Assembly (NCBI GenBank): GCA_947088865.1
Contig: CAMUHY010000011.1
Coordinates: forward strand, 1-64,000
DNA from: an uncultured Eubacterium sp.
GTDB lineage: Bacteria; Bacillota; Clostridia; Lachnospirales; Lachnospiraceae
Length of the DNA: 64,000 bases
Direction: 5' to 3'
A program made the translations under genes and the position numbers. Position 1 is the stretch's first letter. Each line of letters begins with the position of its first letter. Of the stretch, positions 17,983-42,352 are shown piece by piece. The notes under the pieces were generated by a model. That model searched no databases. It was not told the origin of the DNA and saw nothing but the letters and a program-made list of their open reading frames with translations.

Positions 17983-18212
17983 AGTAATCCCCATTCGTAC
18001 ATTACTTTTGAGCAATCTTTAAAAGTAATTTAATCTGTCCATTTAGTATATTAAATTATTGCGGAATTGACAAGTCATTATGTACAAGTTAGGTGTGAAA
18101 AATAAGTTTTCTAGTTATAAAAAATTAAAAAGTGCTTTATGCTTGCCCTAAGTCCTATTATTTGTTACAATTCCATTATGTTTTGCTAAAGATTATGGAA
18201 TTGGAGGGCTGT

Positions 18213-18959
18213 ATGAGAGAATATACCGATTTTGCATATGTCTATGATGAATATATGGATAATATTCCATATGATGAATGGTGTGCCTACCTCATTCAAT
18301 TGCTGGAGGAATATCATATTAATAGTGAAGATTCAATTGTAGATTTAGGCTGTGGTACGGGAACCGTCACAAGGATTCTTGACAAAGCCGGTTATGATTG
18401 TATAGGAATTGATATGTCACAGGATATGTTGACCATTGCCTCTGAAAAAACGATTGATAGTGGACAAGAAATTATTTATAGTTTGCAGGATATGAGAGAG
18501 TTTAGCCTTCCATACGAGGTTTCGGCGATGATTAGCATTGGCGATTCAATGAATTATATAACGTCGATGGATGATTTAAAAAATGTATTTGAATCTGTAA
18601 AAAAAGGCTTGGTTTTAGGGGGCATATTTATTTTTGACCTAAAGACGATACATTTTTTTAAAGATATTTTAAGGGATAATACGTATGCAGAAAATAGAGA
18701 GACATCTGCTTTTATATGGAATAATTACTATGAAGATGATACGAGAAATAATATATATGATTTGGCAATATTTGTTCAAAATGAAGATGGTCTTTTTGAA
18801 CGCTTTGAGGAACAGCATTTTCAGCATGGATTTGAGGTTGATGAGGTGAAAAATGCAGCACAGGCAGCAGGATTGGAAGTGATAGCAGTCTATGATGCAT
18901 TTACACACAACGAACAAAATAAGGATAGTGAACGATTGTATTATATTGTTAAAAAATAA
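18213..18959 (+). CDS. Class I SAM-dependent methyltransferase
   Basis: 248 residues with the SAM-binding motif I VDLGCGTGTVTRIL (near residue 46), motif II acidic residue in CIGIDMSQDML, and a downstream FDLKT segment. The N-terminus MREYTDFAYVYDEYMD is typical of YqeM-like methyltransferases of Firmicutes. Substrate unknown. The ATG follows TTGGAGGGCT. Confidence 0.88.
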   Translation: MREYTDFAYVYDEYMDNIPYDEWCAYLIQLLEEYHINSEDSIVDLGCGTGTVTRILDKAGYDCIGIDMSQDMLTIASEKTIDSGQEIIYSLQDMREFSLPYEVSAMISIGDSMNYITSMDDLKNVFESVKKGLVLGGIFIFDLKTIHFFKDILRDNTYAENRETSAFIWNNYYEDDTRNNIYDLAIFVQNEDGLFERFEEQHFQHGFEVDEVKNAAQAAGLEVIAVYDAFTHNEQNKDSERLYYIVKK

Positions 18960-29980: not shown

Positions 29981-30398
29981 TTAACATTTAAATGCAGGGT
30001 TAAAATAGTAATAGTTTTTAGAGTTTAATTTATCTTGGACAATAGAAAGTCCTTCACCAAAACGCTGAAAATGCACAACTTCACGTTCACGCAAGAATCT
30101 GAGAGGGTCTAACACATCAGGGTCATCGGTTAGTCTTATAAGGTTGTCATATGTGGTTCTAGCTTTTTGCTCTGCTGCCATATCTTCAAAAAGGTCTGTG
30201 ATAGGGTCGCCTTTTGACTGAAATTCACATGCGTTAAATGGAATACCGCCAGCTGCTTGAGGCCATATAGCAGCAGTATGGTCGACATAGTATGCCTCAA
30301 AAGGCGTTCCTTTTATCTGTTCCATTGAAAGATTCCTAGTTAATTGATGAACCATTGTACTAATCATTTCAAAATGACCTAGTTCTTCTGTACCTATA
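29981..30398 (-). CDS. cotJC: cotJC segment 3 of 3 (C-terminal part of spore coat Mn-catalase-like protein)
   Basis: Codes for the last 136 residues of CotJC plus the shared junction, starting at TATAGGTA and reading IGTEELGHFEM onward. It contains three of the expected metal-ligand regions of manganese catalases: EELGH, DMAAEQKART and EREVVHFQRF. It has no stop codons or frameshifts. Standing alone it lacks the first 62 residues and has only a chance ATG (MWNISVAF) supplied by the adjacent element. Joined at TATAGGTA to segment 2, it continues ACC GAT ATA GGT ACA GAA in frame. Expression as a whole protein therefore needs loss of the 8,053-bp element. Confidence 0.92.
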
Positions 30399-30419
30399 AA
30401 AGCAACAGAAATGTTCCAC
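30391..30419 (-). other. att site of element 2, cotJC segment 3 side
   Basis: Core TATAGGTA (minus strand, 30398-30391) shared with 38451-38444. The element-side arm 30399-30419 reads GTGGAACATTTC at its outer end on the minus strand and is an inverted match of the arm at 38421-38441 (18 of 21 positions). Confidence 0.85.
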
Positions 30420-30443
30420 ATAGGTCAACAGTCAAATAAGCGG

Positions 30444-31253
30444 CTAAAAGGAAGGTGCAAAGAGTGGTTTTTTCGGTATATAAGGTTCCGCTTTTTGTGC
30501 GGTGATATCACGTATAATAATAAAAGGCGTTTGCTCATCATCTTGCCCTGCGGGATTATCTTCAATAAGAGCGGCTAGATTTTCATTTGAAATATTGTTT
30601 AATGGGGTGCATTTTCCCAAAATATTGACATGGATATCATTGGCATCGACAATCATAATTGGAATGTGGAATTGTTTATAAATTTCATTACAAACTTTTG
30701 TTGGTTCTTTTGGATTGAGTGTTGCTATGGTTCGATATATCTCAAAGGCAGAGTGATTGTAAAAACCATCAATTCCAGCAGTTTCCTCACCTAAAATTTT
30801 ATAAAATAATCCTCGCTTGCCGATTAATTTTCCTAAAGTACCGATGATGCCAGCATACAATACATTGCCGAAACCATTGATATCAATCATTAATTGAAGT
30901 TTGTAGGGCTGTGTAATGCCAATTCCGCTGTCTGTCTTTTTTCCAAATTTGCTCATCAGCTTTGTAAGCGGATGTAATTTTATATCCTCCATGTGTACAA
31001 TATTTTTTTGACACATAGAGATAACTTTTTCACTGACACTGACAATATCTCCTTTTTCTATAAAAGGAACGATATATTGCTGTATTAAATTTAGATAATT
31101 TTCTCCAGCTTCAATAAAATGTGTCTTAATGCCATAACGCTCATAAGTGTGACCATTTGCTTTGATAGTACCGCGAATATAGTATTCAATAGAGCCTTTT
31201 TTTCTATAATTAACAGGTTCATTTAAATTTCCTTCATATAAATATTTTGCCAT
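30444..31253 (-). CDS. Coenzyme F420:glutamate ligase (CofE)-like protein
   Basis: 269 residues. The region IKTHFIEAGENYLNLIQQYI then KGDIVSVSEKVISMCQ matches the N-terminal pattern of the F420-0:gamma-glutamyl ligase fold, and the later YRTIATLNPKEPTKVCNEI and DANDIHVNILG fit its C-terminal half. Related proteins occur in Firmicutes that do not make F420, so the substrate is open. A good AAAAGGAGA ribosome-binding site precedes the ATG. It is the element-2 gene closest to cotJC segment 3 and ends 25 bases from the att arm. Confidence 0.7.
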   Translation of the reverse strand: MAKYLYEGNLNEPVNYRKKGSIEYYIRGTIKANGHTYERYGIKTHFIEAGENYLNLIQQYIVPFIEKGDIVSVSEKVISMCQKNIVHMEDIKLHPLTKLMSKFGKKTDSGIGITQPYKLQLMIDINGFGNVLYAGIIGTLGKLIGKRGLFYKILGEETAGIDGFYNHSAFEIYRTIATLNPKEPTKVCNEIYKQFHIPIMIVDANDIHVNILGKCTPLNNISNENLAALIEDNPAGQDDEQTPFIIIRDITAQKAEPYIPKKPLFAPSF

Positions 31254-31351
31254 AATAAAAAATCTCCTTTTATTAAATTTCTTTAGGTAAGCGTTGAACT
31301 TACCTGTTTAAAAATGTGGCGAAATAGCAATATAGTGAATTGCTTATAAAT

Positions 31352-31399
31352 AAAAAAGCTTTTATCTGATAGAAATTTTATCAAATAAAAGCTTTTTAT
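31352..31399. terminator. Hairpin terminator after the kinase gene
   Basis: AAAAAAGCTTTTATCTGAT pairs with ATCAAATAAAAGCTTTTTT around GAAATTTT, with A and T tracts on both sides, so it can stop transcription in either direction. It separates the VanS-like gene from the CofE-like gene. Confidence 0.85.
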
Positions 31400-31463
31400 A
31401 ATTTAATATTGAATTGATTAATTATTAAGAAAATATAAATATAATATTGAAATTTTTATAGAA

Positions 31464-32612
31464 TTAGGATGGCAGTATAATATGAAAAGTGGTCTGTTCC
31501 TGCTCGCTTTCTGCCCAGATAGTTCCGCCATGTAATGTAATAATTTCCTTTGAAATTGCCAGTCCAAGACCTGCACAGCCCGTATTGATGGAACGCGATT
31601 CATCTAGGCGAAAGAATTTTTCAAAGATGGATTCTAGTTTATGTTTTGGAATCGTTTTTCCTCTGTTTTGAAAATCAATATGGATTTCTTTTTCGTTGCC
31701 GCTGGCAAAAACTTGAATTTCAGTGTTGGGATAACTGTAAGCAACCGCATTTTTTAAGATATTATTAAATACTCTTGCAAGCTTTTCAGAATCGCCATAT
31801 AAAATTAAATTTTCGTCTGCATGAAGTGAAATTGTGTTGCCGTGTGCTTGAAAAATAGGATAAAATTCATCCGTCAATTGAACAAGCATATAATAAAGAT
31901 TTATACTTTCCTTTTCTAAGCTGATTTGAGAAAGGTTATATCTTGTTATATCAAAAAATTCATTAATCAGTTTTTCTAAACGCAACGCCTTATCTAATGT
32001 AATATTGATATAGTTGGATTGTTGTGCAATTGGCATTTCTGGTATTTCCTTTAATAAACTTAAATAACCGATAATGGAAGTAAGCGGTGTTTTTAAATCG
32101 TGAGCAAGATAGACAATCAAGTCATTTTTTCGGGTAGACTCTTCTTTTAACATTTGTTCGTGATGTTGGATGGTTGATTTAATTTCTACCATTTGAGCAA
32201 AAAGCTCTGCATTTTCTTCTTTGTATATATCAGGAATAGCCATGTTGTCTATCATATAGAACTGTACCATTTTGTTGGCATTAGAAATAGTTTGATTCAC
32301 TTTTTTTTCAGCGTAAAGCCATGCTGCTGCAAATATACTTGTTGCCCATAAAACGACCGTTATACATAATGTTATCAAAAAAATTTGTTTAATCGTATGC
32401 CATTGTGGCTCAATAATAGTTATTTTATACATTTCATCAACTGTTGAAATTGCACGGTGGGCCATTAAATTTTCAGAGAACCAGTTACGAATGGTAGCAC
32501 TCCAATTTATATCTATCCAGTAATAAAGCTTAAAACATAGTATTAATAAAATAATAAGGGTGGTGATATATATTAATAATCGTTTACTTGTTTTTTTACT
32601 ATTATTTTTCAA
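31464..32612 (-). CDS. VanS-like sensor histidine kinase
   Basis: 382 residues: transmembrane helices at about 12-30 and 76-100 flank a 45-residue outside loop. The dimerisation domain has the phospho-acceptor in YLAHDLKTPLTSIIGYLSLL. The ATPase domain shows NNILKNAVAYS (N-box) and CAGLGLAISKEI (G-box). The TTG start overlaps the end of the response regulator gene by 11 bases, so the pair is co-translated. Sequence style is that of VanS, but no van ligase or dipeptidase genes follow. Confidence 0.9.
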   Translation of the reverse strand: MKNNSKKTSKRLLIYITTLIILLILCFKLYYWIDINWSATIRNWFSENLMAHRAISTVDEMYKITIIEPQWHTIKQIFLITLCITVVLWATSIFAAAWLYAEKKVNQTISNANKMVQFYMIDNMAIPDIYKEENAELFAQMVEIKSTIQHHEQMLKEESTRKNDLIVYLAHDLKTPLTSIIGYLSLLKEIPEMPIAQQSNYINITLDKALRLEKLINEFFDITRYNLSQISLEKESINLYYMLVQLTDEFYPIFQAHGNTISLHADENLILYGDSEKLARVFNNILKNAVAYSYPNTEIQVFASGNEKEIHIDFQNRGKTIPKHKLESIFEKFFRLDESRSINTGCAGLGLAISKEIITLHGGTIWAESEQEQTTFHIILPS

Positions 32613-33297
32613 TTTTATATCCGCACCCCCAAACTGTTTTTATATATTTAGGGTCTTCAAAAGAGTCACCCATTTTTTCACGCAGATGCCGAATATGAAC
32701 AGTAATGGTATTATTGTTTTTATTAAAATATTCATCACCCCATATTTGTTGGAATAATTCTTCTGAGCTTACAACATTTCCTTTTTGTTCACATAAGATT
32801 CGTAAAATAGAAAATTCAATAGGCGTCAGTGACAATGGTTGTTCATTTAAAGTACATTGATGACTTTTGATATTTAAAACCAAACCAGAATGAACAAGAA
32901 TATCATTTTCTTGACTGGTATCTTGATTGTAGCGTTTATAGCGGCGAAGCTGTGCTTTTACCCGAGCGACAAGTTCCAATGGCAGAAAAGGTTTTGTAAT
33001 ATAGTCGTCTGCTCCCAGCGTCAACCCTGTAATTTTGTCAATTTCTTCGCTTTTTGCGGTAAGCATAATAACAGGATAATGATAGTTTTCTCGGATTTTT
33101 TGGCATAGCTGAAAGCCGTTTATATCTGGAAGCATAATATCTAAAATGGCTAAATCCAATATCGTATTTTGAATACAATTTAAACCATCAGTACCATTAT
33201 AATATTTAAAAACTTCATAATTTTCATTTTGAAGATATAATTCAATAAGGTCTGCAATCTCACGCTCATCATCAATAATTAATATTTTTTCTTTCAT
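32602..33297 (-). CDS. VanR-like OmpR/PhoB-family response regulator
   Basis: 231 residues. Receiver domain with D9, D10, phospho-acceptor D53 (LDLAILDIMLPD) and lysine in YITKPF; C-terminal winged helix with RILCEQKGNVVSSEEL and TVHIRHLREKMG. First gene of a two-gene transcript with the kinase. Target genes are unknown; the CofE-like gene downstream of the terminator is one candidate. Confidence 0.93.
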   Translation of the reverse strand: MKEKILIIDDEREIADLIELYLQNENYEVFKYYNGTDGLNCIQNTILDLAILDIMLPDINGFQLCQKIRENYHYPVIMLTAKSEEIDKITGLTLGADDYITKPFLPLELVARVKAQLRRYKRYNQDTSQENDILVHSGLVLNIKSHQCTLNEQPLSLTPIEFSILRILCEQKGNVVSSEELFQQIWGDEYFNKNNNTITVHIRHLREKMGDSFEDPKYIKTVWGCGYKIEK

Positions 33298-33442
33298 TAG
33301 TTTAAAGTCCTTTCTCTTATCTGTTTTTATTTTATCAAAATAAAGAATGGTTATTTTAATATTTTCTTAATAAATAGTAAAGATTTTCTTACATCAAGGT
33401 AAAATATATAGTATATAAAGTAAGAGATTAGAAGATAAGAAA

Positions 33443-33790
33443 ATGGTGTATAAAGATTTGGCGGCAAATGATATTCTTTATATGGTGGAAGAAATTAATG
33501 ATTTTAAAGGTGGCATGGTTGAAAATTATGTTAATACACAATTAATTATGAATGGATATAACACTTATTATTGGGAGTCTGAGCGTGGTGCTGAAATTGA
33601 TTTTGTAATTCAGCGTGATGGAAAGTTAATACCAATTGAGGTTAAATCGGCAGATAATACAAAAGCAAAAAGCTTAAAATTATATATGCAGACATATAAC
33701 CCAGATTATGCAATAAAACTTTCTACGAAAAATTTTGGTTTTGAGGATAAGAAAAAGACGGTTCCTCTTTATGCTGCTTTTTGTATTTGA
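33443..33790 (+). pseudogene. Remnant of a DUF4143 ATPase (C-terminal domain only)
   Basis: 115 residues matching only the C-terminal nuclease-like domain of the AAA ATPase/DUF4143 family: MVENYVNTQLIMNG, then YWESERGAEIDFVI and PIEVKSADNTKAKSLK. The usual ATPase domain of about 250 residues with Walker motifs is missing and no sequence for it lies upstream. There is no good ribosome-binding site. It reads as a decayed passenger gene of element 2. Confidence 0.7.
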
Positions 33791-33918
33791 CTTTATCAGA
33801 GCATTTTTTTACTTTTTAAGCAAAACTTTGGTTTGTCTGTATTGTTATATTGTACAAGCTTTTATGAATACATTATATCAATGACAGATAATCAATGATG
33901 GATAAGGAAAATTGATAA

Positions 33919-34104
33919 TTGAAATGCCGTGAGTTTATTTATGATGGAGAGCCTGCTTTAAAAATGACAGAACAAGAATATACCGCATTTTATCTGCAAT
34001 TTGAAAAATCGATTATGGCTTCCTTAAAAAAAAGAGGGCTGTTGACCGATTTGCAGTATGAGCGTTGTATGGAGGAACTAGAAAGGAAAGCTTATGTCGA
34101 TTGA
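33919..34104 (+). CDS. Small protein overlapping the serine recombinase gene
   Basis: 61 residues with a TTG start (AAGGA about 10 bases upstream). Acidic N-terminal half and a helical C-terminal half, RGLLTDLQYERCMEELERK, resembling the short helix pair found in SHOCT-like motifs. Its stop overlaps the recombinase start by 11 bases, so the two are co-expressed. Position and size make it a possible recombination directionality or accessory factor, but no family is recognised. Confidence 0.55.
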   Translation: MKCREFIYDGEPALKMTEQEYTAFYLQFEKSIMASLKKRGLLTDLQYERCMEELERKAYVD

Positions 34105-35695
34105 TAAATATAAAGCGCTTAACAGGAAACGAGCAATACAGCATACGAAAAAAAGAGTTGCTGCATATTGCCGCGTTTCAACAGAACGTGAAGACCAAGC
34201 CAATTCATTTGAAAGCCAGTGTTTGTTTTTTAAGCAGTATATAGAACATAATCCAGATTGGGAACTTTACGAAATATTTGCGGATTCAGGGATTTCTGGC
34301 ACCAATACCAAAAAGCGCAAAGAATTTAATCGTATGATTGCCTGTGCAAAAAGCGGTCAATTGGATTTGATTCTCACAAAAGAGATTTCCCGTTTTGCAA
34401 GAAATACACTAGACAGTATCTATTATACACGCGACCTTAAAAAGTATGGTGTTGGCGTTATTTTTATGAATGACAATATCAATACATTGGATGGGGATGC
34501 GGAGCTTCGGTTGTCTATTATGGCATCGATTGCGCAGGAAGAGAGCCGCAGGACTTCGGAGCGTGTGAAGTGGGGACAGAAACGGCAGATGGAACAAGGC
34601 GTTGTGTTTGGACGGAGTATGTTAGGTTATGATATAAAAGGCGGCAAGATGTATATTAACGAGGAGGGGGCAGCGATTGTCCGCCTTATTTTTTATAAAT
34701 TTGTCCATGAGAGAAAAGGCGCTTATGTGATTGCGCGCGAGCTTCGCGAAGCAGGCATTGCACCTATGCGTGCAAACGAGTGGAACAACACCGTTATTTT
34801 GCGCATTATTCGCAATGAAAAATATTGTGGTGATTTAGTGCAAAAAAAAACCTATACGCCTGATTTTCTTTCACATGAAAAGAAAATGAATCACGGAGAG
34901 GAAGAGTTTGTGATTATCAAAGACCATCATATGCCTATTATACCGCGTGATTTATTTGATAAAGCCAATGAGATTTTAAATGAAAAATCCCATTGTCAAA
35001 AAGGAAAGGCAAAATATAGCAATCGCTATTTATTTTCTGGAAAAATTAAATGCGGCATATGTGGTGCAAGTTATGCTGCACGGTATAAAAACAGAAAGGA
35101 TGGCAGTAAATATAAGGCTTGGAGCTGTCTTACACGTGTTCAAAACGGAAGTCCTCATATAGATAGAGCAGGCAATCAAACAGGGTGTTCTGGAATTCGT
35201 ATCCGCAATGAAGAAGCTCTTTATATCATGTATCTTACCTGTAAACGATTAGATATAGAACGGGAAAAAATATCACAGCATTTAATAAAAATAATAGATA
35301 AAGTTTTTTTAATGGATACAGGGAATTACAGTAATATCTGGGCAGAACAGATGGAGATGGCAGAGAAAAAATATAGAAATTTGATTGAATTATATACAAA
35401 TGGCGATATTGACCAAAAGGAATTTATTGTTTTTAGGGAAAAATATTATGCACAGATAGAGGATTTAAAGGCAAAGATAGAATATGGTAAGCAACAATTT
35501 GTTGTAATAGAAAATCAAAAAAAATTAATAGAACATATAAAAAATGTTATTGATGAACTTATGGATGGTGTTTTATATGAAGATGAATTTTATGCACATC
35601 TTCTTGATAAAATGGTGGTGAGTGAACAAAATAGCATTGCTGTGTATTTAAAGGGGCTGTCTTTTGAGTGGCGTTATATAATGAAAAGAAAGTGA
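34094..35695 (+). CDS. Large serine recombinase of element 2
   Basis: 533 residues. Catalytic resolvase domain with YCRVSTEREDQ (nucleophile S29), EISRFARNT and EESRRTSERVKWGQ; recombinase domain with GRSMLGYDI and the arginine-rich ARELREAGI stretch; zinc ribbon with CGICGASYAARY near residue 320; then a C-terminal coiled coil. Such enzymes integrate and, with a directionality factor, excise DNA between attP and attB. It is encoded in the middle of element 2 rather than at an end, and opposite to cotJ, so its cognate site is inferred. Confidence 0.93.
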   Translation: MSIDKYKALNRKRAIQHTKKRVAAYCRVSTEREDQANSFESQCLFFKQYIEHNPDWELYEIFADSGISGTNTKKRKEFNRMIACAKSGQLDLILTKEISRFARNTLDSIYYTRDLKKYGVGVIFMNDNINTLDGDAELRLSIMASIAQEESRRTSERVKWGQKRQMEQGVVFGRSMLGYDIKGGKMYINEEGAAIVRLIFYKFVHERKGAYVIARELREAGIAPMRANEWNNTVILRIIRNEKYCGDLVQKKTYTPDFLSHEKKMNHGEEEFVIIKDHHMPIIPRDLFDKANEILNEKSHCQKGKAKYSNRYLFSGKIKCGICGASYAARYKNRKDGSKYKAWSCLTRVQNGSPHIDRAGNQTGCSGIRIRNEEALYIMYLTCKRLDIEREKISQHLIKIIDKVFLMDTGNYSNIWAEQMEMAEKKYRNLIELYTNGDIDQKEFIVFREKYYAQIEDLKAKIEYGKQQFVVIENQKKLIEHIKNVIDELMDGVLYEDEFYAHLLDKMVVSEQNSIAVYLKGLSFEWRYIMKRK

Positions 35696-35727
35696 TAAAG
35701 TATTATTTGGAATATTATAACGATTTG

Positions 35728-35857
35728 TTAAGCGGATATTCGCAATCCGCTACGCTACTTGCTCATAACCTCATAGCTACTATCGTAGCTTTTGCAAGTC
35801 CCCCTCCACTTATGCCTTTGCAGCATTGAAGTGGGGGACTTCCTTGATGAGGTTAAA
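35728..35857. repeat. REP-like palindrome plus C-tract hairpin (copy 2) inside element 2
   Basis: 35728-35762 is the REP-like repeat in reverse (AAGCGGATATTCGCAATCCG then CTACGCTACTTGC). 35763-35791 holds GAGGTTATGAGC-type linker with a GCTAC/GTAGC hairpin. 35792-35857 is an inverted copy of the C-tract hairpin at 24061. The remainder of this 347-base gap, to 36042, is AT-rich with no gene seen. Confidence 0.65.
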
Positions 35858-36042
35858 TAAATGAATATATATATTTCGTGATTATTTGTAAAGATTGTTT
35901 ATAAGGATAAATACATTTATTAACAGAAACTTTTAAATGATGCCAAGTGAAAAGATAAAAAGTTTCTGCTAATGAATGATTTATTTTGAATGATTTTTTG
36001 TAGAATAAGAAAAAACAAATGTTGAAATTTTTAATGAATAAA

Positions 36043-38280
36043 CTATTTATGTTTTTTTGGACATTTATGATTATGTATTGTCTTTGCAATGGATTCTAAC
36101 AGTAAAGGAACATCAATTGGTTTGGTAAGATGTGCATCCATACCGCTCTCAATAGACAGTTGTCTGTCGCTTTCAAAGGCGTTTGCAGATAATGCAATAA
36201 TTGGAATATTGGCTAATTCCGGGTTGTCTAATTTGCGTATTGCTTGTGTTGCCTCACGACCGTCCATAACAGGCATCTGAATATCCATTAAAATAAGGGC
36301 GTATTCTCCAGGTTTAGATTGTTTGATTTTTTCAACGGCAATACTGCCATTGACAGCCGTTTCAATAAGAAATCCAAGTTCTTGCAGCAGTTCTACTTCA
36401 ATTTCTAAATTAATTTCATTGTCTTCTGCCAGTAGTATTTTTTGGTTGAGCAATTGAGCAATAATTTCCTTGCTTTCCGTAGAAAAAGGCAATGGGCGAT
36501 TTTGTATATGAAGACGAAGTGTAACTGTAAAAGTAGTGCCTCTGCCAACAGCACTGTCTACACTTATCTCGCCGCCCATCATATCAACAATATTTTTGAC
36601 AATAGTAAGACCTAATCCGGTGCCATGAATACCACTAATTGTTGTATTGTTTTCGCGTTCAAATGGTTCATAGATATGTTCTAAAAAATCTTTACTGATT
36701 CCAATGCCAGTATCTTGAATCGTAAATTGATACATGGCATAATCGTCTGGCAATTCTTTTAGTTCAGTCGCCGTTATATCAACTTTGCCTTCCGATGGCG
36801 TATAAATAATAGCATTTTGAGCCAAATATAAAAGGCATTGCCGTATTTTGGTATTATCGCCATAAATATCACAATGTTCCAAAGAAGAGCAGTGAACAGA
36901 AAAAGTTATATTTTTTTCTGCTGCCTGCGGCAATAATGTTTTATGGATACCTTGTATAATATCACATATATTACATTCGCTTTCTGTAAGATGAATGTTG
37001 TTGGTTTCCATCCACGATATTTCTAATGTTTTATCAATTAGGTCTAAAAGTTGTCTGCCTGCTGTTTCAAGTTTGTCGAGATAGGTGCAGACTGCTTCAG
37101 TGTCATCAATATGCTGTTTTGCAAGAGAAGTAAAACCAAAAATGGCATTGAGTGGTGTGCGCATATCGTGTGACATGTTGGACAGAAATGTATTTTTTGC
37201 GATAATTGCCAGCTTTGCATTATCAAGCGCTTCTTCCAATATTTGTTTTTGTTCCATTTCACGCCGGATTTCTTCATCAACTCTTCGATATCCCATAACA
37301 ATTTGTGAAATGTCCTTTTTATTCCCAACATTTACAATACGAAGTTGTAAAAATTGAATTTCTCCTTCGTTTATAATACGATAATTGACATAGTATGTTT
37401 TATTATTTGATAGTTGGCTGCGAATATACTCAGGAGAGGTTGTTTTAGTAACAAGTTCACGGTCTTCAGGATGAACCCAAGTCTTAATATAGTCAGAAAT
37501 ATACCAAATAAATCGGCGAGGTTGAAATTTTTTGCCAAATTGGAGCTGTGTTCGGCTGCTTAATCGATATGGAAGAATTTTATCGGTATCTAAATCGGCA
37601 TATAGAATAGACTCATAATTAATGCTAAGACCTTCTATAACTTCAAGACGCCGTAGATATTCTTGAGTGATTAAGCTTTTTTCTTTGTTATATTCTTTAA
37701 GCAAATTTTGCAGATGTTCTTCTTTTAAACTTTTTTCCTCAGATGAAGCTTTTTCCAACAACATACGATTTCTTTTTTCCGTTGCATCACTTAAAAAGAC
37801 ATAAAAGACATCCCCTAAATGCTGTGTGTGAATAAAATGTCCATAATCTTCAATCCAACGAATTTGTCCATCTTTTCGGATAATCCGGTATTCGACATAG
37901 TCTAAATCATATTGACTGTCAAAAATTTGTTCTTGGATACTTTGTTCTATTTTATCTAAATCACATGGATGAACCATTCCTTTAAAAGAATTTCCAGTTA
38001 ATTCTACAAATTCTTTTTTTGTAGTGCAGCCAAAAATGCGAAGTAAAGCATCGTTGGCATAAATAATATGCTCATCATCATCTGCACGATAAATAAAAAA
38101 GCCTCCAGGCATTTCATTCATAAATTTTATAATTTCATGCGCAATGCTTATATTTTGTGAAGGTGAAAAGGGAGATAATTCTGTTTGTATGTAGTCTTCT
38201 GTTAAGTTGTTTAGAAGTACAGTGTCTAATATGGGTAGTATATGTTCAATCAGTCTATGCTCCATTTCATGTTCGTTCAT
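36043..38280 (-). CDS. PAS-domain hybrid sensor histidine kinase/response regulator
   Basis: 745 residues, no membrane helix, so cytoplasmic. Order: PAS domain (about 40-165, GGFFIYRADDDEHIIYAND then RRIIRKDGQI-like), coiled coil, second PAS-like region (about 210-350), HisKA with FLSNMSHDMRTPLNAI, HATPase with QNAIIYTPSEG and GTGLGLTIVKNI, and a receiver with KILLAEDNEIN and ALILMDIQMPVMDG. No output domain, so it should feed a phosphotransfer relay. The ATG at 38280 follows GGGAGG; a longer frame adds 13 residues without support. It lies next to the att arm of element 2. Confidence 0.92.
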   Translation of the reverse strand: MNEHEMEHRLIEHILPILDTVLLNNLTEDYIQTELSPFSPSQNISIAHEIIKFMNEMPGGFFIYRADDDEHIIYANDALLRIFGCTTKKEFVELTGNSFKGMVHPCDLDKIEQSIQEQIFDSQYDLDYVEYRIIRKDGQIRWIEDYGHFIHTQHLGDVFYVFLSDATEKRNRMLLEKASSEEKSLKEEHLQNLLKEYNKEKSLITQEYLRRLEVIEGLSINYESILYADLDTDKILPYRLSSRTQLQFGKKFQPRRFIWYISDYIKTWVHPEDRELVTKTTSPEYIRSQLSNNKTYYVNYRIINEGEIQFLQLRIVNVGNKKDISQIVMGYRRVDEEIRREMEQKQILEEALDNAKLAIIAKNTFLSNMSHDMRTPLNAIFGFTSLAKQHIDDTEAVCTYLDKLETAGRQLLDLIDKTLEISWMETNNIHLTESECNICDIIQGIHKTLLPQAAEKNITFSVHCSSLEHCDIYGDNTKIRQCLLYLAQNAIIYTPSEGKVDITATELKELPDDYAMYQFTIQDTGIGISKDFLEHIYEPFERENNTTISGIHGTGLGLTIVKNIVDMMGGEISVDSAVGRGTTFTVTLRLHIQNRPLPFSTESKEIIAQLLNQKILLAEDNEINLEIEVELLQELGFLIETAVNGSIAVEKIKQSKPGEYALILMDIQMPVMDGREATQAIRKLDNPELANIPIIALSANAFESDRQLSIESGMDAHLTKPIDVPLLLESIAKTIHNHKCPKKHK

Positions 38281-38380
38281 GCAAATAATCCTCCCAATAT
38301 TTTGAGCAAATTTTAACATAAAAAAGTGTATTTGTCATTATTCTTGTATATATATATTAATAATTTTTATTTAACATCAT

Positions 38381-38413
38381 CAAGTAGTGTAGCGGATTGT
38401 GAATATCCGCTTA
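38381..38413 (+). repeat. REP-like palindrome near the end of element 2
   Basis: CAAGTAGTGTAGCGGATTGT followed by GAATATCCGCTTA; AGCGGAT and ATCCGCT pair. It sits 8 bases from the att arm and matches the copy at 49052 closely. Confidence 0.7.
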
Positions 38414-38420
38414 CCGAATG

Positions 38421-38451
38421 GTGGAACATTTCCGTAGCTTCACTACCTATA
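38421..38451 (-). other. att site of element 2, cotJC segment 2 side
   Basis: Core TATAGGTA (minus strand 38451-38444), then the element-side arm 38441-38421 ending GGAAATGTTCCAC on the minus strand. The arm is an inverted match of 30399-30419. Confidence 0.85.
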
Positions 38452-38546
38452 TCGGTTAAAAGACCAGATACTTCCCTATAAGGCATACTATATCGTTGAG
38501 AAATATATCTCAAAGAAGCTCCAAGTTCTCCGTCAGGACCACCATA
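38444..38546 (-). CDS. cotJC: cotJC segment 2 of 3 (stranded between two elements)
   Basis: Only 103 bases lie between the two elements. They code for YGGPDGELGASLRYISQRY and then SMPYREVSGLLTDIG, the second 31-residue block of CotJC including the first expected metal-ligand glutamate (DGEL). The block begins at the core repeat of element 1 and ends at the core repeat of element 2. It has no start codon of its own that belongs to the gene; the apparent ATG in AATGAAG and the tail after TDIG come from element DNA. Confidence 0.92.
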
Positions 38547-38561
38547 CTTCATTAAGGGGCA
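38537..38561 (-). other. att site of element 1, cotJC segment 2 side
   Basis: Core TATGGTGGTC (minus strand 38546-38537) preceded on the minus strand by the arm TGCCCCTTAATGAAGTA (38561-38545), which mirrors the arm at 41644-41660 in 15 of 17 positions. Confidence 0.87.
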
Positions 38562-38569
38562 TGTTTGTA

Positions 38570-39994
38570 TTATAAATATAAAAATATTTTTAACATATCC
38601 TTCTTTTTGTCGTACACCATATGGTCAACAATACTTCTTAAAGCCGCCGCTCGAACGGCAGTATCAAAAGATTCCTCTTTTATAATATCATAAACAGAGT
38701 GAATTTCATTTACGCCTTGTTTTTTTGTTGCCGTTTCATTTATTGTGTTAAGTACAGTCGTCAATGTATCACGTTCTTTTGACAAAAGCAATTTATTTTC
38801 TTTATATTCTTCTAATGAATCAATCCCATCACGGTAAGCTTGTTTGATACGCTGTTCTTTATCTGCTATTTTTTGCAGCTGAACAGTGAGCAATTGGATA
38901 GGGCTATCGGCTGTCTTATAATTGTCCTTTGAAATAAAAGTAAATTCATCTAAGTTTAATATGTTTTTTAAAGCATCCAATACGGTATGTTCTAATAGTT
39001 GAATTGAGATATAGTGACTATCAGGACAAGCTCCTTTATTATATTTGCTGCACTGATAATATTGTTTGTTTTTTACCACCAGAGAAGCACCGCATGATGA
39101 ACATTTTACAATGCCACTCAGCCAATGCGACATAGAAGCTGCTGATTTTGCTTTATAAGGAAGAGTTCGTCTGTGCAGTTGTTCCTGTGTTTGGTCAAAT
39201 AAAGATTCGGATATAATGGCTTTGTGTTGTCCTTTGGCAATAATCCATTCTGATTGATTTTTAATCGTATGGTCGTCATGATGCTGGCGGTTCCAGCGCA
39301 CATATCCTTTGTAAAATGGATTTTCTAATATATATCGAATCGTGCGGTGTTCAAATGCAGCCCCGCGTTTTGTCTTGCATCCAAGAAGATTGATATAGCG
39401 TGCAATCTCAAGAAAACTTTTTCCTTCATTATAAAGGTCAAATATAATTGTGACAATCTTTGCTTCTGGTTCATAAATTTGTGGACAAGAATGGCTATGA
39501 TCATACCGATAACCGTAAGGGAGTGCGCTTTGATATCCGCCATGCAGCGCTTTTTCAGTCATACCGCGCATCACCTCACCGGACAGACGAATAGAATAGT
39601 ATTCATCCATCCATTCAATAATGCGCTCGATAAGGCTTCCAAACGGACCATCAATAAGCGGTTCTGATATACTAATCACTTCTACGTTTGACTTTTTTAA
39701 CAGCGATTTATAAACAATAGATTCTTCTTGATTTCTGGCAAATCGACTAAATTTCCACACTAATATAATATCAAAGGGATGCTCTTTTGATTTTGCCATG
39801 TGAATCATTTTTTGGAATTGAGGTCTCTTGTCCGCTTTTTTGCCAGAGATACCATTTTCAATAAATAGAAATTCCTCAGATATTTGATAATTATTTTTTT
39901 TGCAGTAATCAAGAATAAGGCGTTTTTGTGCATTGGGGGAAAGCTCTTCTTGTTTGTCTGTGCTAACGCGAATATAGGCACAAGCTGTTTTCAT
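38570..39994 (-). CDS. Large serine recombinase of element 1
   Basis: 474 residues. Resolvase-type catalytic domain starting MKTACAYIRVSTDKQ with nucleophile S11 and VWKFSRFARN; recombinase domain with YGYRYDH and NPFYKGYVRWNRQ; zinc ribbon CSSCGASLVVKNKQYYQC then CPDSHY; coiled coil near the C-terminus. Same class as SpoIVCA and SprA, which excise intervening DNA from sporulation genes. It runs in the direction of cotJ and ends 9 bases from the att arm, the normal place for an integrase. AAGGAGG precedes the ATG. It differs clearly from the element-2 enzyme. Confidence 0.95.
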   Translation of the reverse strand: MKTACAYIRVSTDKQEELSPNAQKRLILDYCKKNNYQISEEFLFIENGISGKKADKRPQFQKMIHMAKSKEHPFDIILVWKFSRFARNQEESIVYKSLLKKSNVEVISISEPLIDGPFGSLIERIIEWMDEYYSIRLSGEVMRGMTEKALHGGYQSALPYGYRYDHSHSCPQIYEPEAKIVTIIFDLYNEGKSFLEIARYINLLGCKTKRGAAFEHRTIRYILENPFYKGYVRWNRQHHDDHTIKNQSEWIIAKGQHKAIISESLFDQTQEQLHRRTLPYKAKSAASMSHWLSGIVKCSSCGASLVVKNKQYYQCSKYNKGACPDSHYISIQLLEHTVLDALKNILNLDEFTFISKDNYKTADSPIQLLTVQLQKIADKEQRIKQAYRDGIDSLEEYKENKLLLSKERDTLTTVLNTINETATKKQGVNEIHSVYDIIKEESFDTAVRAAALRSIVDHMVYDKKKDMLKIFLYL

Positions 39995-40160
39995 AGCGCC
40001 TCCTTAAAGGCAATAAATAAGATAGTATATTGTATTAACTTATTTTAAAAATAGTGCAATATATTGGGCTTTCGTATGCTAAATCACACAAAATTACAGA
40101 TAGGAACAAGGACAAGGACTGTCGAATAAATTACTTATAGATAAAAAGGATGGTTTGACT

Positions 40161-40343
40161 ATGAATGTTATTTATTATGCTTGCAGCAGGTCTGATGGAA
40201 TATTAAGCAATGTAAGGCTCTTTAGCGATATGAGCAAGCAAGAGCAAGAAACGTTTAAGCGAAAGTTAATAATAACATCGGCAAAAGAAGCAGGATATAA
40301 AATAAACAGTAGGAAGAACGCCTATAAGAAACCAAAGGAATAA
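40161..40343 (+). CDS. Small basic protein of element 1 (possible directionality factor)
   Basis: 60 residues, net positive with a lysine/arginine-rich end (RKNAYKKPKE) and an IYYAC start. AAGGA is 10 bases before the ATG. It is the first gene of the plus-strand run with holin and amidase. SprB, the directionality factor of SP-beta, is of similar size (58 residues), but no sequence match is claimed; a small phage lysis-module protein is the alternative. Confidence 0.6.
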   Translation: MNVIYYACSRSDGILSNVRLFSDMSKQEQETFKRKLIITSAKEAGYKINSRKNAYKKPKE

Positions 40344-40381
40344 ATTGATTAATATAAAAAATATAGTGGAGAAATGTAAAT

Positions 40382-40648
40382 ATGGATTTATCAAATTATG
40401 CAACGGTTTTACCTATTGTGATTATATGTTATCTGATTGGTTATGGATGTAAGGTTATCAAGCATGTGCCAAACAAATATATTCCAATTATTGTAGGTGT
40501 AGCAGGCGGCATTCTTGCAATACCAGCCGTAAAAATCATGCCCGATTTTCCTGCTACCGATGTTATAACAGCTATCTCAATTGGGATTATGTCTGGTTTG
40601 ACAAGTACGGGTGTGAATCAGGTATTTAAAGTAGTAAAAGCAAAATAA
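40382..40648 (+). CDS. Phage holin-like membrane protein
   Basis: 88 residues with three hydrophobic stretches (about 6-20, 33-52 and 60-80) and short polar turns (KHVPNKYIPI, PDFPATDV), ending in a basic tail. Size, topology and position directly before an amidase gene match phage holin families of Firmicutes, which make the membrane lesions that let endolysin reach the wall. Confidence 0.8.
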   Translation: MDLSNYATVLPIVIICYLIGYGCKVIKHVPNKYIPIIVGVAGGILAIPAVKIMPDFPATDVITAISIGIMSGLTSTGVNQVFKVVKAK

Positions 40649-40670
40649 AGACTTTGGAATGGAGAACATT

Positions 40671-41636
40671 ATGAGTAATAGTAGTCTAGTTGATGTTGTT
40701 ATAAAATCGCCAAATTGTGATAGTCCAAGAAATGATACGATTCAAGGAATTACAATTCATCATATGGCAGATGTATTAACCGTAGAAGAATGTGGTGAAA
40801 GCTTTGCAAATCCTGAGAGAAAAGCATCTTCAAACTATGGGATTGACAGCGATGGCAAGGTCGGGCTTTATGTAGATGAGGCAGATAGACCATGGACGTC
40901 GGGAAATGCTGAAAATGATAATAAGACGATTACAATAGAGGTGTCTAATAGTGAAGCAGGTGGAGAGTGGCCTGTATCTGATACAGCGTATGATAAGTTG
41001 ATTGATTTGTGCGTTGATATTTGTCAGCGGAATAATATAAAAGAACTCAACTACACAGGCGACCTTTCTGGAAATCTTTACATCCATAAAATGTTTCAAG
41101 CAACATCATGTCCTGGCCCCTTTCTTGAATCCAGAATGCCTGATATAGCAAATAAGGTTAATGAGCGTTTAGGCTCACAAGAAAATGGCGAACAAGGAAT
41201 TTCCGTTGACTATCAAGTTCAGCTAAATGAGGGGAAAAGATGGCTTCCAGTGGTGCGAAATCAAAACGATTATGCAGGGTTGGTTGGCATGGAGATTATT
41301 GGGATTGCTATCAAAGTGTCCAAAGGGTATGCTCAGTATCGAGTACATGATGCCGATGGATGGTATGGTATGATTGATACACGAAATACAAATATTGATG
41401 ATTTTCAAAATGGTTATGCAGGCAATAACAAGCCGATTGACGCATTGGAAATCTATTATTACACACCAGATGAAATTATCAATAATACTGGATATAAAAA
41501 AGCAGTTTATCGCGTCTCACCAGTAAATGGCGAATATTTTGACTGGCAGCATGATAATGAAACAGGGAATGGTCAAGATGGATATGCAGGCGCTTTTGGT
41601 ATGCCATTGGATAGGGTGCAGATTGTAATTGAGTAG
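40671..41636 (+). CDS. N-acetylmuramoyl-L-alanine amidase (endolysin)
   Basis: 321 residues. N-terminal Amidase_2 domain with the zinc ligands in ITIHHMAD and in YIHKMFQATSCPG, and the RPWTSGN segment. The C-terminal half (about 175-321) has two wall-binding repeats recognisable by VHDADGWYG then YAGNNKPIDALEI, and DWQHDN then YAGAFGMPLDRVQI. No signal peptide, as expected for a holin-dependent endolysin. Its stop is 7 bases from the att arm of element 1. Confidence 0.9.
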   Translation: MSNSSLVDVVIKSPNCDSPRNDTIQGITIHHMADVLTVEECGESFANPERKASSNYGIDSDGKVGLYVDEADRPWTSGNAENDNKTITIEVSNSEAGGEWPVSDTAYDKLIDLCVDICQRNNIKELNYTGDLSGNLYIHKMFQATSCPGPFLESRMPDIANKVNERLGSQENGEQGISVDYQVQLNEGKRWLPVVRNQNDYAGLVGMEIIGIAIKVSKGYAQYRVHDADGWYGMIDTRNTNIDDFQNGYAGNNKPIDALEIYYYTPDEIINNTGYKKAVYRVSPVNGEYFDWQHDNETGNGQDGYAGAFGMPLDRVQIVIE

Positions 41637-41643
41637 TCTTTTT

Positions 41644-41672
41644 TGCCCCTTATGGAAGTATAGACCACCATA
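41644..41672 (-). other. att site of element 1, cotJC segment 1 side
   Basis: Core TATGGTGGTC (minus strand 41672-41663) followed by element-side arm TACTTCCATAAGGGGCA (41660-41644), the inverted partner of the arm at 38545-38561. Confidence 0.87.
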
Positions 41673-41756
41673 TTGACTTATTATCATTGCTGCCAATGTT
41701 GGATTGGTCTGTTTGATATTGACAGGATATTCTAATCTTTTCTCATAATTCCACAT
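41663..41756 (-). CDS. cotJC: cotJC segment 1 of 3 (start codon and first 31 codons)
   Basis: Begins ATG TGG AAT TAT two bases after the cotJB stop, with GGAGG 9 bases upstream. It reads MWNYEKRLEYPVNIKQTNP then TLAAMIISQYGG, the canonical CotJC N-terminus. Beyond TATGGTGGTC the frame enters element 1 and no longer resembles CotJC. Joined to segment 2 the sequence continues GGT GGT CCT GAC GGA (GGPDG) in frame. The three joined segments give 597 bases, 198 residues plus stop. Confidence 0.93.
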
Positions 41757-41757
41757 A

Positions 41758-42153
41758 TTAACAGCCCTCCATTTCCCAAGGCATTGGTGTTGCAACCCAA
41801 GTCCAATAGTTATCACAGTCTACACTGGTAAAGGTCAAAGGTCCTATTTTGTCTTCATAAATTTTTACTGCCTTATTATATTTTTCCTTCATCTTATTAT
41901 AATATTCGATGGCTTCTAAGTCATTAGGGTGCGTGTCAAGATAAAGTAAAATTTCAGTCATAACAAATCCTAATTCATAGACATTCATACAAATTTCTTT
42001 TTTATTAAAACAAGGTTTTTCAGGAATATTTGCATCATTACATGGCATATTCATATTGTAGGTGTTTCTCATAGGCATTTGTCCACGAGGACGCATGTTG
42101 CCTTGCATCGCCGTTTTATTATTGCAGGAGTTGTTCATATTGTTATTATTCAT
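41758..42153 (-). CDS. cotJB: Spore coat protein CotJB
   Basis: 131 residues. An N-terminal Met/Asn-rich segment of about 50 residues with several Cys is followed by the conserved CotJB domain: NVYELGFVMTEILLYLDTHP, then EAIEYYNKM and the WTWVATPMPWE end. The ATG chosen overlaps the cotJA stop (TAATG); its ribosome-binding site AAAGGAGG is inside the last cotJA codons. A component of the inner spore coat with CotJA and CotJC. Confidence 0.93.
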   Translation of the reverse strand: MNNNNMNNSCNNKTAMQGNMRPRGQMPMRNTYNMNMPCNDANIPEKPCFNKKEICMNVYELGFVMTEILLYLDTHPNDLEAIEYYNKMKEKYNKAVKIYEDKIGPLTFTSVDCDNYWTWVATPMPWEMEGC

Positions 42154-42308
42154 TAACATTTACCTCCTTTAAATGGTTTATCAAGCACAGCAAATAGCGT
42201 CCCTCTGGCAAATGCTTTACAAGGTTCATATAAATCCCCCCAGCGCTGCCATGGGACATACGCCATTGCAGGTGATTGGACTTGTGTTGTCCGATTATTA
42301 CAATCCAT
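42153..42308 (-). CDS. cotJA: Spore coat-associated protein CotJA
   Basis: 51 residues with the diagnostic YVPWQRWGDLYEP and AFARGTLFAVLDKPF segments. The ATG at 42308 has GAAGGA at 6 bases; a longer frame to 42350 has no ribosome-binding site. First gene of the cotJABC operon, which in B. subtilis is transcribed by the mother-cell factor sigma-E. Confidence 0.92.
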   Translation of the reverse strand: MDCNNRTTQVQSPAMAYVPWQRWGDLYEPCKAFARGTLFAVLDKPFKGGKC

Positions 42309-42352
42309 AAAACTTCCTTCTGCCTGATTAAAGGCTTGAGTTATACTCAATT

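Follow-up and report, generated by a model that had tools for sequence, protein, structure and literature searches.

The present analysis concerns the spore-coat gene cotJC in a 64,000-nt stretch of DNA from an uncultured Eubacterium sp. of the Lachnospiraceae (contig CAMUHY010000011.1, positions 1 to 64,000; hereafter the window), in which the gene lies on the minus strand in three pieces, separated by two elements that each carry a large serine recombinase. The split gene is a sporulation gene of the cotJABC operon, and both insertions are inside its coding region. We consider it highly probable that cotJC is interrupted here by two independently acquired integrative elements, of which at least the first is phage-derived, and that these are excised by their own recombinases in the sporulating mother cell. 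The operon, the pieces, the elements with the cores of their left and right attachment sites (attL and attR), and the recombinases are arranged as follows.

42153 to 42350, minus strand: cotJA (Pfam CotJA, 2.1e-19); the coordinates are those of the listed open frame, an internal ATG of which is probably the true start
41758 to 42159, minus strand: cotJB (Pfam CotJB, 8.6e-28)
41663 to 41756, minus strand: cotJC piece 1, codons 1-28 plus the attL core of position A (sequence reading and junction script)
41663 to 41672, minus strand: attL core of element 1, TATGGTGGTC (sequence reading and junction script)
38547 to 41672, no strand assigned: element 1, 3126 bp (core-to-core distance), at cotJC codon 28/29 (position A)
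38570 to 39994, minus strand: large serine recombinase 1, 474 amino acids (aa), the 3' end of which adjoins piece 2 (Pfam Resolvase, Recombinase and Zn_ribbon_recom, all over cut-off)
38537 to 38546, minus strand: attR core of element 1, TATGGTGGTC (sequence reading and junction script)
38444 to 38546, minus strand: cotJC piece 2, codons 29-62, 103 bp (core A at 38546-38537, core B at 38451-38444)
38444 to 38451, minus strand: attL core of element 2, TATAGGTA (sequence reading and junction script)
30399 to 38451, no strand assigned: element 2, 8053 bp (core-to-core distance), at cotJC codon 62 (position B)
34094 to 35695, plus strand: large serine recombinase 2, 533 aa, inside element 2 (Pfam Resolvase, Recombinase and Zn_ribbon_recom, all over cut-off)
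30391 to 30398, minus strand: attR core of element 2, TATAGGTA (sequence reading and junction script)
29981 to 30398, minus strand: cotJC piece 3, through the stop codon (core B at 30398-30391)

The coordinates that an earlier note on this DNA had given for three in-order pieces on the minus strand were right to the base, the junction script returning gaps of 3126 and 8053 bp, and the short direct repeat that it had placed at each break was found as a core of 10 bp in the first case and 8 bp in the second. By direct reading, piece 1 terminates with TATGGTGGTC and the same ten bases open piece 2, which is closed by TATAGGTA, and the same eight bases open piece 3. Joining at these repeats gives 597 bases and 198 residues with no inner stop, which supports the precise in-frame rebuilding that had been proposed. 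The joined protein matched the Pfam model Mn_catalase (PF05067) over residues 1-183 with 169.9 bits (E 8e-50), compared with 102.9 bits (2e-29) for the open frame of piece 3 alone (29981-30421), and its best match in NCBIfam was manganese catalase, at 88 bits against a model cut-off of 350. The description of the intervening DNA as two separate elements that each encode a serine recombinase also held, both recombinases being full-length and containing the three expected domains. A second intact cotJC, beside which these pieces might be silent, was looked for in the genome (3.29 Mb, 48 contigs, 99.98% complete) and rejected because the search matched the three pieces only. The cores fall on conserved codons, for YGGP at position A and for DIGTEELGH at position B, which we take to be metal-site stretches of the catalase fold. 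When the arms of each element are joined as in the excised circle (attP), 34 of 44 bases are self-complementary in element 1 and 40 of 52 in element 2; palindromic attP arms are the form expected for large serine integrase sites. The frame of piece 2 (38367-38552, minus strand) continues for approximately 25 residues beyond attL of element 2 before it reaches a stop, and read-through of the unrearranged DNA could yield a short alternative peptide.

Regarding close relatives, in which the earlier note had suggested searching for an uninterrupted gene, cotJC was matched in 18 of 22 genomes of the genus, the window's genome included. Ten congeners carry a full-length copy (82-89% identical), and their DNA runs gap-free across both junctions. 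Since a single break lies near codon 62 in two other congeners (G312, G311) and at codon 28 in a third (G314), both positions used in the window are occupied singly elsewhere in the genus. In G318, residues 1-32 and those from approximately 52 onward are present, the stretch between being unseen. Three genomes of the same genus (G300, G301 and G302; 99% complete) match neither cotJC nor the second target gene described below, a double absence that would fit the loss of sporulation.

The wider family was sampled with 299 genomes from 298 genera, many of them draft or metagenome assemblies in which the two sides of a break are often on separate contigs, and 183 had a cotJC match. Among the 61 genomes with weak matches that were rechecked, four had a near full-length copy (that of G272 being only 31% identical), and in 47 of the other 57 a break was seen with both of its sides present. 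Four positions are affected: B (approximately codon 62) in 25, A (approximately 28) in 16, C (approximately 136) in nine and D (approximately 170) in four, with two positions in seven genomes and one-sided, contig-edge or frameshift cases in the remaining ten. Positions C and D correspond to DMAAEQKARTT and HFQRFGEALR, respectively, which we likewise take to be metal-site stretches. At least 47 of the 183 family genomes, the window's genome apart, therefore have a broken cotJC, which is a lower bound because broken copies were sought in the rechecked genomes only. The split gene is real and recurrent, and a chance split is excluded because ten uninterrupted congeneric copies cross both junctions gap-free and the same break points are found in other genera.

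The earlier note had regarded two stacked elements in one short gene as an undescribed arrangement. No report of an element inside cotJC was found in the open-licence papers searched, which agrees with that view; the arrangement is not unique, since stacking recurs in the family. Three breaks were found in two further genomes. In G321 (L064), one contig holds residues 26-71, residues 60-138 and the C-terminal part in this order, a second contig holds the N-terminal piece, and positions B and C join in frame. G333 (L020) has four pieces over two contigs, among which A joins in frame and the breaks at B and C, with no in-frame join by the script, rest on piece order. Position A also joins in frame in G324. 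In G319 (L031), A and B join and residues 167-196 are on another contig; the search for the missing piece (residues ~137-166) matched only the end of a known piece, and positions C and D, being one-sided, were not counted. On two viral-collection contigs (L162/L230 and L213/L233), a middle piece lies between an A-type and a B-type recombinase.

Piece pairs that lie on the same contig and in order numbered 36, and an in-frame core was found in 34. After two duplicate loci and one pair that skips a middle piece were dropped, 33 distinct junctions remained, 30 of which, including both in the window, join within one residue of the expected length. L032, which gave no core in the first test, was resolved with a trimmed piece, and L131 gave none by the script, GGTACAGAAG being visible on both sides by eye only. 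Elements at the tested junctions range from 2.4 kb (L105) to 16.9 kb (L112), and elsewhere the distance between cotJC pieces is approximately 34 kb (L040), 39 kb (L094) or 55 kb (L081). Two of these loci come from cultured relatives: L040 from Mobilitalea sibirica DSM 26468, which has in addition a 35%-identical homologue, and L094 from Blautia massiliensis GD8, in which no second match was found. In G060, two C-terminal pieces (from residues 56 and 57; G060:C68:14663-15094 and 18203-18631) lie approximately 3 kb apart on one strand, with one N-terminal piece located elsewhere, and it may be asked whether these are two alternative ends for one gene.

The recombinases sort by the position at which they are found. 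A tree was built from 135 of 140 recombinase frames, four duplicates and a single copy of the window's own being excluded. Of these frames, 51 were labeled as beside cotJC position A, 29 B, 11 C and five D, and 39 had no cotJC piece nearby; thirteen of the labels were assigned manually, and deep relations are unsure because this was a quick tree without bootstrap in which several long branches meet. Positions A to D require three changes, the fewest possible for four states, and when the rows lacking cotJC are given a fifth label of their own, ten changes are needed compared with a shuffled mean of 69.8. Positions C and D each occupy one side of a branch, B falls into two lineages of 19 and 10, and the A rows are inside one branch of 87 together with 36 rows without cotJC. 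Recombinase 1 is in a nine-row all-A set (support 100) and recombinase 2 in two sets, of 11 and 14 rows, that are all B (support 99 and 98). We assign recombinase 2 to the position-B junction because the recombinases most closely related to it are found, in other genera, at this same break of cotJC, and the possibility of an unrelated passenger was rejected by this placement. The near-identical B recombinases of L116 and L152 differ with a synonymous divergence (dS) of 0.11 while synonymous change in cotJC is saturated, which points to movement of B recombinases between genera.

Beside the A lineages, 31 rows without cotJC form a single lineage (support 96), and of the 14 fragments most shared downstream of it, 12 come from one protein and two from its opposite strand. 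With the intact congeneric protein as the query, at least part of this second target gene was found in 27 of the 31 loci and nothing in four; both halves, split at residue ~295, are present in four loci (L021, L052, L070 and L091), and in L069 the gene runs uninterrupted across the split point. The protein matched the Pfam model PG_binding_1 (3.5e-16) and, at 20.8 bits, fell under the cut-off of 23 for SpoIID. In the window's genome, the matched part of this gene has no interruption (G000:C1:377636-378016).

The ratio of nonsynonymous to synonymous divergence (dN/dS) was calculated by NG86 for congeneric cotJC pairs, and values refer to pairs with finite dS only. These were 16 of 50 pairs with one broken copy (median 0.043, range 0.017-0.083), two of ten with both copies broken (0.026 and 0.059) and 16 of 45 with both intact (median 0.053); where measurable, broken congeneric copies are as constrained as intact ones. 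A stronger test than the congener pairs is provided by L064 and L065, both of which are broken at A and B: dN/dS is 0.084 and 0 for the cotJC pieces and 0.080 and 0.107 for the recombinases, indicating that the pieces and both recombinases have been constrained since a shared doubly broken ancestor. In L031/L032 and L016/L020, which are alike at A, cotJC gave 0.016-0.076 and the recombinases 0.139-0.141. Across the locus-pair comparison, finite cotJC values reach 0.226.

Regarding expression, CATAnnnT is the -10 form common to sigE and sigK promoters. Of 127 recombinases, 58 have it within 150 bp, where 27.8 would be expected (z 6.9), and 33 occurrences are located 21-40 bases ahead of the recombinase start; all positions relative to starts are rough because start codons were chosen by rule. 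At -70 to -15, it precedes 42 of 127 recombinases and 41 of 654 other open reading frames (ORFs) of the same loci (Fisher p 6e-15), as well as 14 of 15 cotJA genes. By lineage, it was found for 15 of 48 A and 10 of 10 B2 recombinases and for 14 of 37 rows without cotJC. TATAAT before recombinases gave z 2.6, and a SpoIIID-type motif at the same place was not enriched (2 of 127 vs 4.2 expected). The host genome has sigE (363.8 bits, over cut-off), a sigK-like gene (279.6 bits, cut-off 298.65) and spo0A. Candidate promoter elements of the window, and the small ORFs beside its recombinases, are as follows.

40029 to 40036, minus strand: AATACAAT, located at -42 of recombinase 1 and differing by one base from the mother-cell-type -10
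40155 to 40343, plus strand: 62-aa ORF divergent from recombinase 1 (open-frame list)
33844 to 33874, plus strand: GTTATATT, 15 bases and AATACATT upstream of the 61-aa ORF, a sigE-like promoter with one mismatch in the -10
33919 to 34104, plus strand: 61-aa ORF overlapping the start of recombinase 2, with relatives in nine other loci, each of which has a position-B recombinase

AATACATT stands at -52 of the 61-aa ORF, and the form recurs before that ORF in four of ten loci, the window's included. The 61-aa ORF may possibly encode an accessory or directionality factor, and the 62-aa ORF, which has no relative among the compared loci, is a candidate directionality factor by position only; searches of Pfam and NCBIfam gave no family match for these small ORFs.

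The remaining features of the two elements are as follows.

40659 to 41636, plus strand: N-acetylmuramoyl-L-alanine amidase, element 1 cargo (Pfam Amidase_2, 8.3e-20)
40382 to 40648, plus strand: phage holin, element 1 cargo (Pfam Phage_holin_5_2, 1.9e-21)
36043 to 38319, minus strand: PAS sensor kinase with a receiver domain, element 2 cargo (Pfam)
33443 to 33790, plus strand: DUF4143 protein fragment, element 2 cargo (Pfam DUF4143, only the end of the model)
32602 to 33297, minus strand: response regulator, element 2 cargo (Pfam Response_reg and Trans_reg_C)
31464 to 32612, minus strand: sensor kinase, element 2 cargo (Pfam HisKA and HATPase_c)
30444 to 31253, minus strand: F420-ligase-like protein, element 2 cargo adjoining attR (Pfam F420_ligase, 5.8e-9)

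The holin and the amidase are the recognizable phage genes of element 1. Close relatives among phage records were rejected as a basis for a phage origin, the best identities being 37.5% (recombinase 1) and 45.0% (recombinase 2); because these relatives are distant, the phage origin rests on the prophage-size elements and on viral contigs. A-type integrases are found at 75 viral-collection loci, and 26 viral-collection loci were examined downstream of the integrase. In L221 and L222, a position-A-type integrase is followed by a palindrome, centered on TACGGCGGCC and TACGGAGGTCC, with no cotJC piece, a layout that fits a free phage; in L195 the palindrome around the core is weaker, and other viral loci have palindromes with different cores.

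Cargo was surveyed in 19 short or cut elements, including element 1 of the window, with chosen ORFs of 14 others scanned against Pfam, and cell-wall or lysis genes of unrelated families were found in eight of the 19.

Window element 1 (40382-41636): Amidase_2 and holin
L016 and L020: CHAP
L071: Amidase_3
L080: Hydrolase_2
L101: GH25, with a relative of the window's holin
L104: LrgA and LrgB
L128: LD-carboxypeptidase

Other cargo comprises Uma2 (L057), a hydrogenase with rubrerythrin (L043), an acyl-CoA dehydrogenase (L061) and an exonuclease (L036). A Spo0A homologue (receiver and Spo0A_C; L103:462-1244, in G030) lies inside a 3.9-kb position-B element of a genome with another Spo0A_C gene. 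Phage lysis genes are often at the end away from the integrase, and for this reason inner deletion alone could leave some of them in short elements; that such cargo aids lysis of the mother cell is speculation.

Considering the precise sites, the matching recombinase lineages and the continued constraint in relatives, developmental excision is the likeliest account of this locus. Each element would have been inserted by its own large serine integrase, through recombination of attP with the bacterial site (attB), into the conserved codons for YGGP (element 1) and DIGTEELGH (element 2). During sporulation, each recombinase and a small directionality factor would be made in the mother cell, and recombination of attL with attR would remove each element to leave an intact cotJC of 198 codons, transcribed from the cotJABC promoter. 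Since the mother cell dies, the rearranged chromosome would not be inherited and the forespore would keep the split gene. The data show the sites, the palindromic arms, the recombinase genes, the agreement of recombinase lineage with site, the empty sites in congeners and the constraint on broken copies in relatives; we infer the excision, its timing and its confinement to the mother cell, as well as which small ORF is the directionality factor.

Several observations weigh against this account. The intended control ATACnnnT, which overlaps CATAnnnT, was also enriched (z 4.5 vs 6.9). In the lineages of the window's recombinases, CATAnnnT was present for 15 of 48 (A) and two of 17 (B1); it was present for one of ten in C and none of five in D, and the window's two recombinases have one-mismatch forms only, without an exact CATAnnnT. 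Recombinase 2 lies 2.7 kb inside element 2 and is not adjacent to its own att site, and a Pfam scan of the proteins of element 2 recognized no phage gene. No excision product was seen; the joined attP of element 1 was absent from the assembly with up to two mismatches allowed. The window's cotJC is saturated in dS against all 14 others, and only its low dN to intact copies (0.084-0.147; median of intact pairs, 0.126) speaks for constraint. Some broken genomes (G308, G322 and G325) have a second full-length cotJC, and L129, with a short recombinase and a poor join (208 vs 196 residues), was not counted as clean. In L018 (L018:7640-12062), the N-terminal piece is on one strand and the C-terminal piece on the other, and the same att arm adjoins both, which is either a real inversion or an assembly error.

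Of the other explanations, the one that survives best, albeit as an unlikely one, is that excision from cotJC occurs in growing cells, either at random or when the phage is induced, with no link to sporulation and with only part of the population able to make CotJC. Position-A elements of ~34-55 kb have the size of prophages, viral contigs contain integrases of the position-A type together with an attP-like site, the CATAnnnT signal is missing from lineages C and D, and excised forms of the yin element of yabG were observed at every time point (PMC10747680); on the other hand, CATAnnnT is over-represented upstream of lineages A and B2 and of the sister lineage without cotJC, and the short elements have lost most phage genes, yet retain a constrained recombinase. 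Still less probable is that prophages or their remnants broke a dispensable coat gene, which persists in its carriers as a pseudogene that is never rebuilt. Bacillus subtilis mutants without this coat protein are described as having no apparent defects (PMC12122855), some carriers have a second cotJC copy, some recombinase frames are short, and no excised attP of element 1 was seen in the assembly; we set this reading aside because 30 of the 33 distinct junctions remain in frame within one residue, dN/dS of broken copies resembles that of intact ones, and the cotJC pieces and recombinases of L064/L065 have remained constrained since their doubly broken ancestor. That both junctions are assembly errors is barely conceivable; the genome is a 48-contig draft, but both junctions are internal to a single contig and flanked on either side by att-type arms, and genomes assembled independently are broken at the same points.

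Beyond developmental excision at this locus, a broader proposal may be put forward tentatively, its parts taken jointly being possible rather than probable. cotJC may be a docking gene whose four conserved codon stretches receive stacks of as many as three, or perhaps four, phage-derived elements, with one integrase lineage per position, each element being removed in the doomed mother cell in the manner of several DNA-level introns. Lysis cargo could then help spore release, and the sister lineage splitting the SpoIID/peptidoglycan-binding gene might indicate a phage group specialized on the genes of a dying cell. Across a bacterial family, a single coat gene of 600 bp has repeatedly been the target of several integrase lineages, and two or three elements would all need to leave before the CotJC protein can be made. 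The choice by phages of genes used only in the mother cell, the order of stacked excisions and any gain for the host are thereby opened to investigation, and many pairs of integrases and att sites have been obtained. A split cotJC should not be annotated as a pseudogene.

In regulated gene integrity (comK, hlb, mlrA and others), integration inactivates a gene and excision restores it, and the cotJC elements are akin to this scheme. The closest precedents are in sporulation genes, and the comparisons below are limited to what the cited sources describe. The skin element in sigK of B. subtilis and C. difficile is prophage-like and is precisely excised by a serine recombinase (PMC5595907, PMC10747680); similar to the cotJC elements, it splits a mother-cell sporulation gene and carries its own serine recombinase, whereas its target and recombinases are different and there is one element per gene, compared with the several positions used in cotJC. 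SPbeta in spsM of B. subtilis is a prophage removed in sporulation, which rebuilds a spore-envelope gene (PMC4191935), and it resembles the prophage-size position-A elements, but is a single element in another target and the window's elements are only 3.1 and 8.1 kb. The gin element in gerE of B. cereus ATCC10987 is not phage-like, interrupts a very short gene with a 9-bp core, and uses serine recombinases and an extra factor (PMC5595907); element 2 resembles it in having no recognized phage gene, while gin is one insertion with three recombinases and cotJC in the window has two insertions with one recombinase each. The intervening elements yin in yabG and vfbin in spoVFB (PMC10747680) are single insertions in other genes and have been described only. 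The phi027 prophage of C. difficile adjoins a CotJC homologue (PMC11222575, PMC12122855), and there, a whole cotJC-type gene lies downstream of attR, beside the prophage, and is not split as in the present case. Thus, the rearrangements of sigK, spsM, spoVFB, gerE and yabG are, as far as these sources describe them, single insertions, whereas cotJC in the window contains two.

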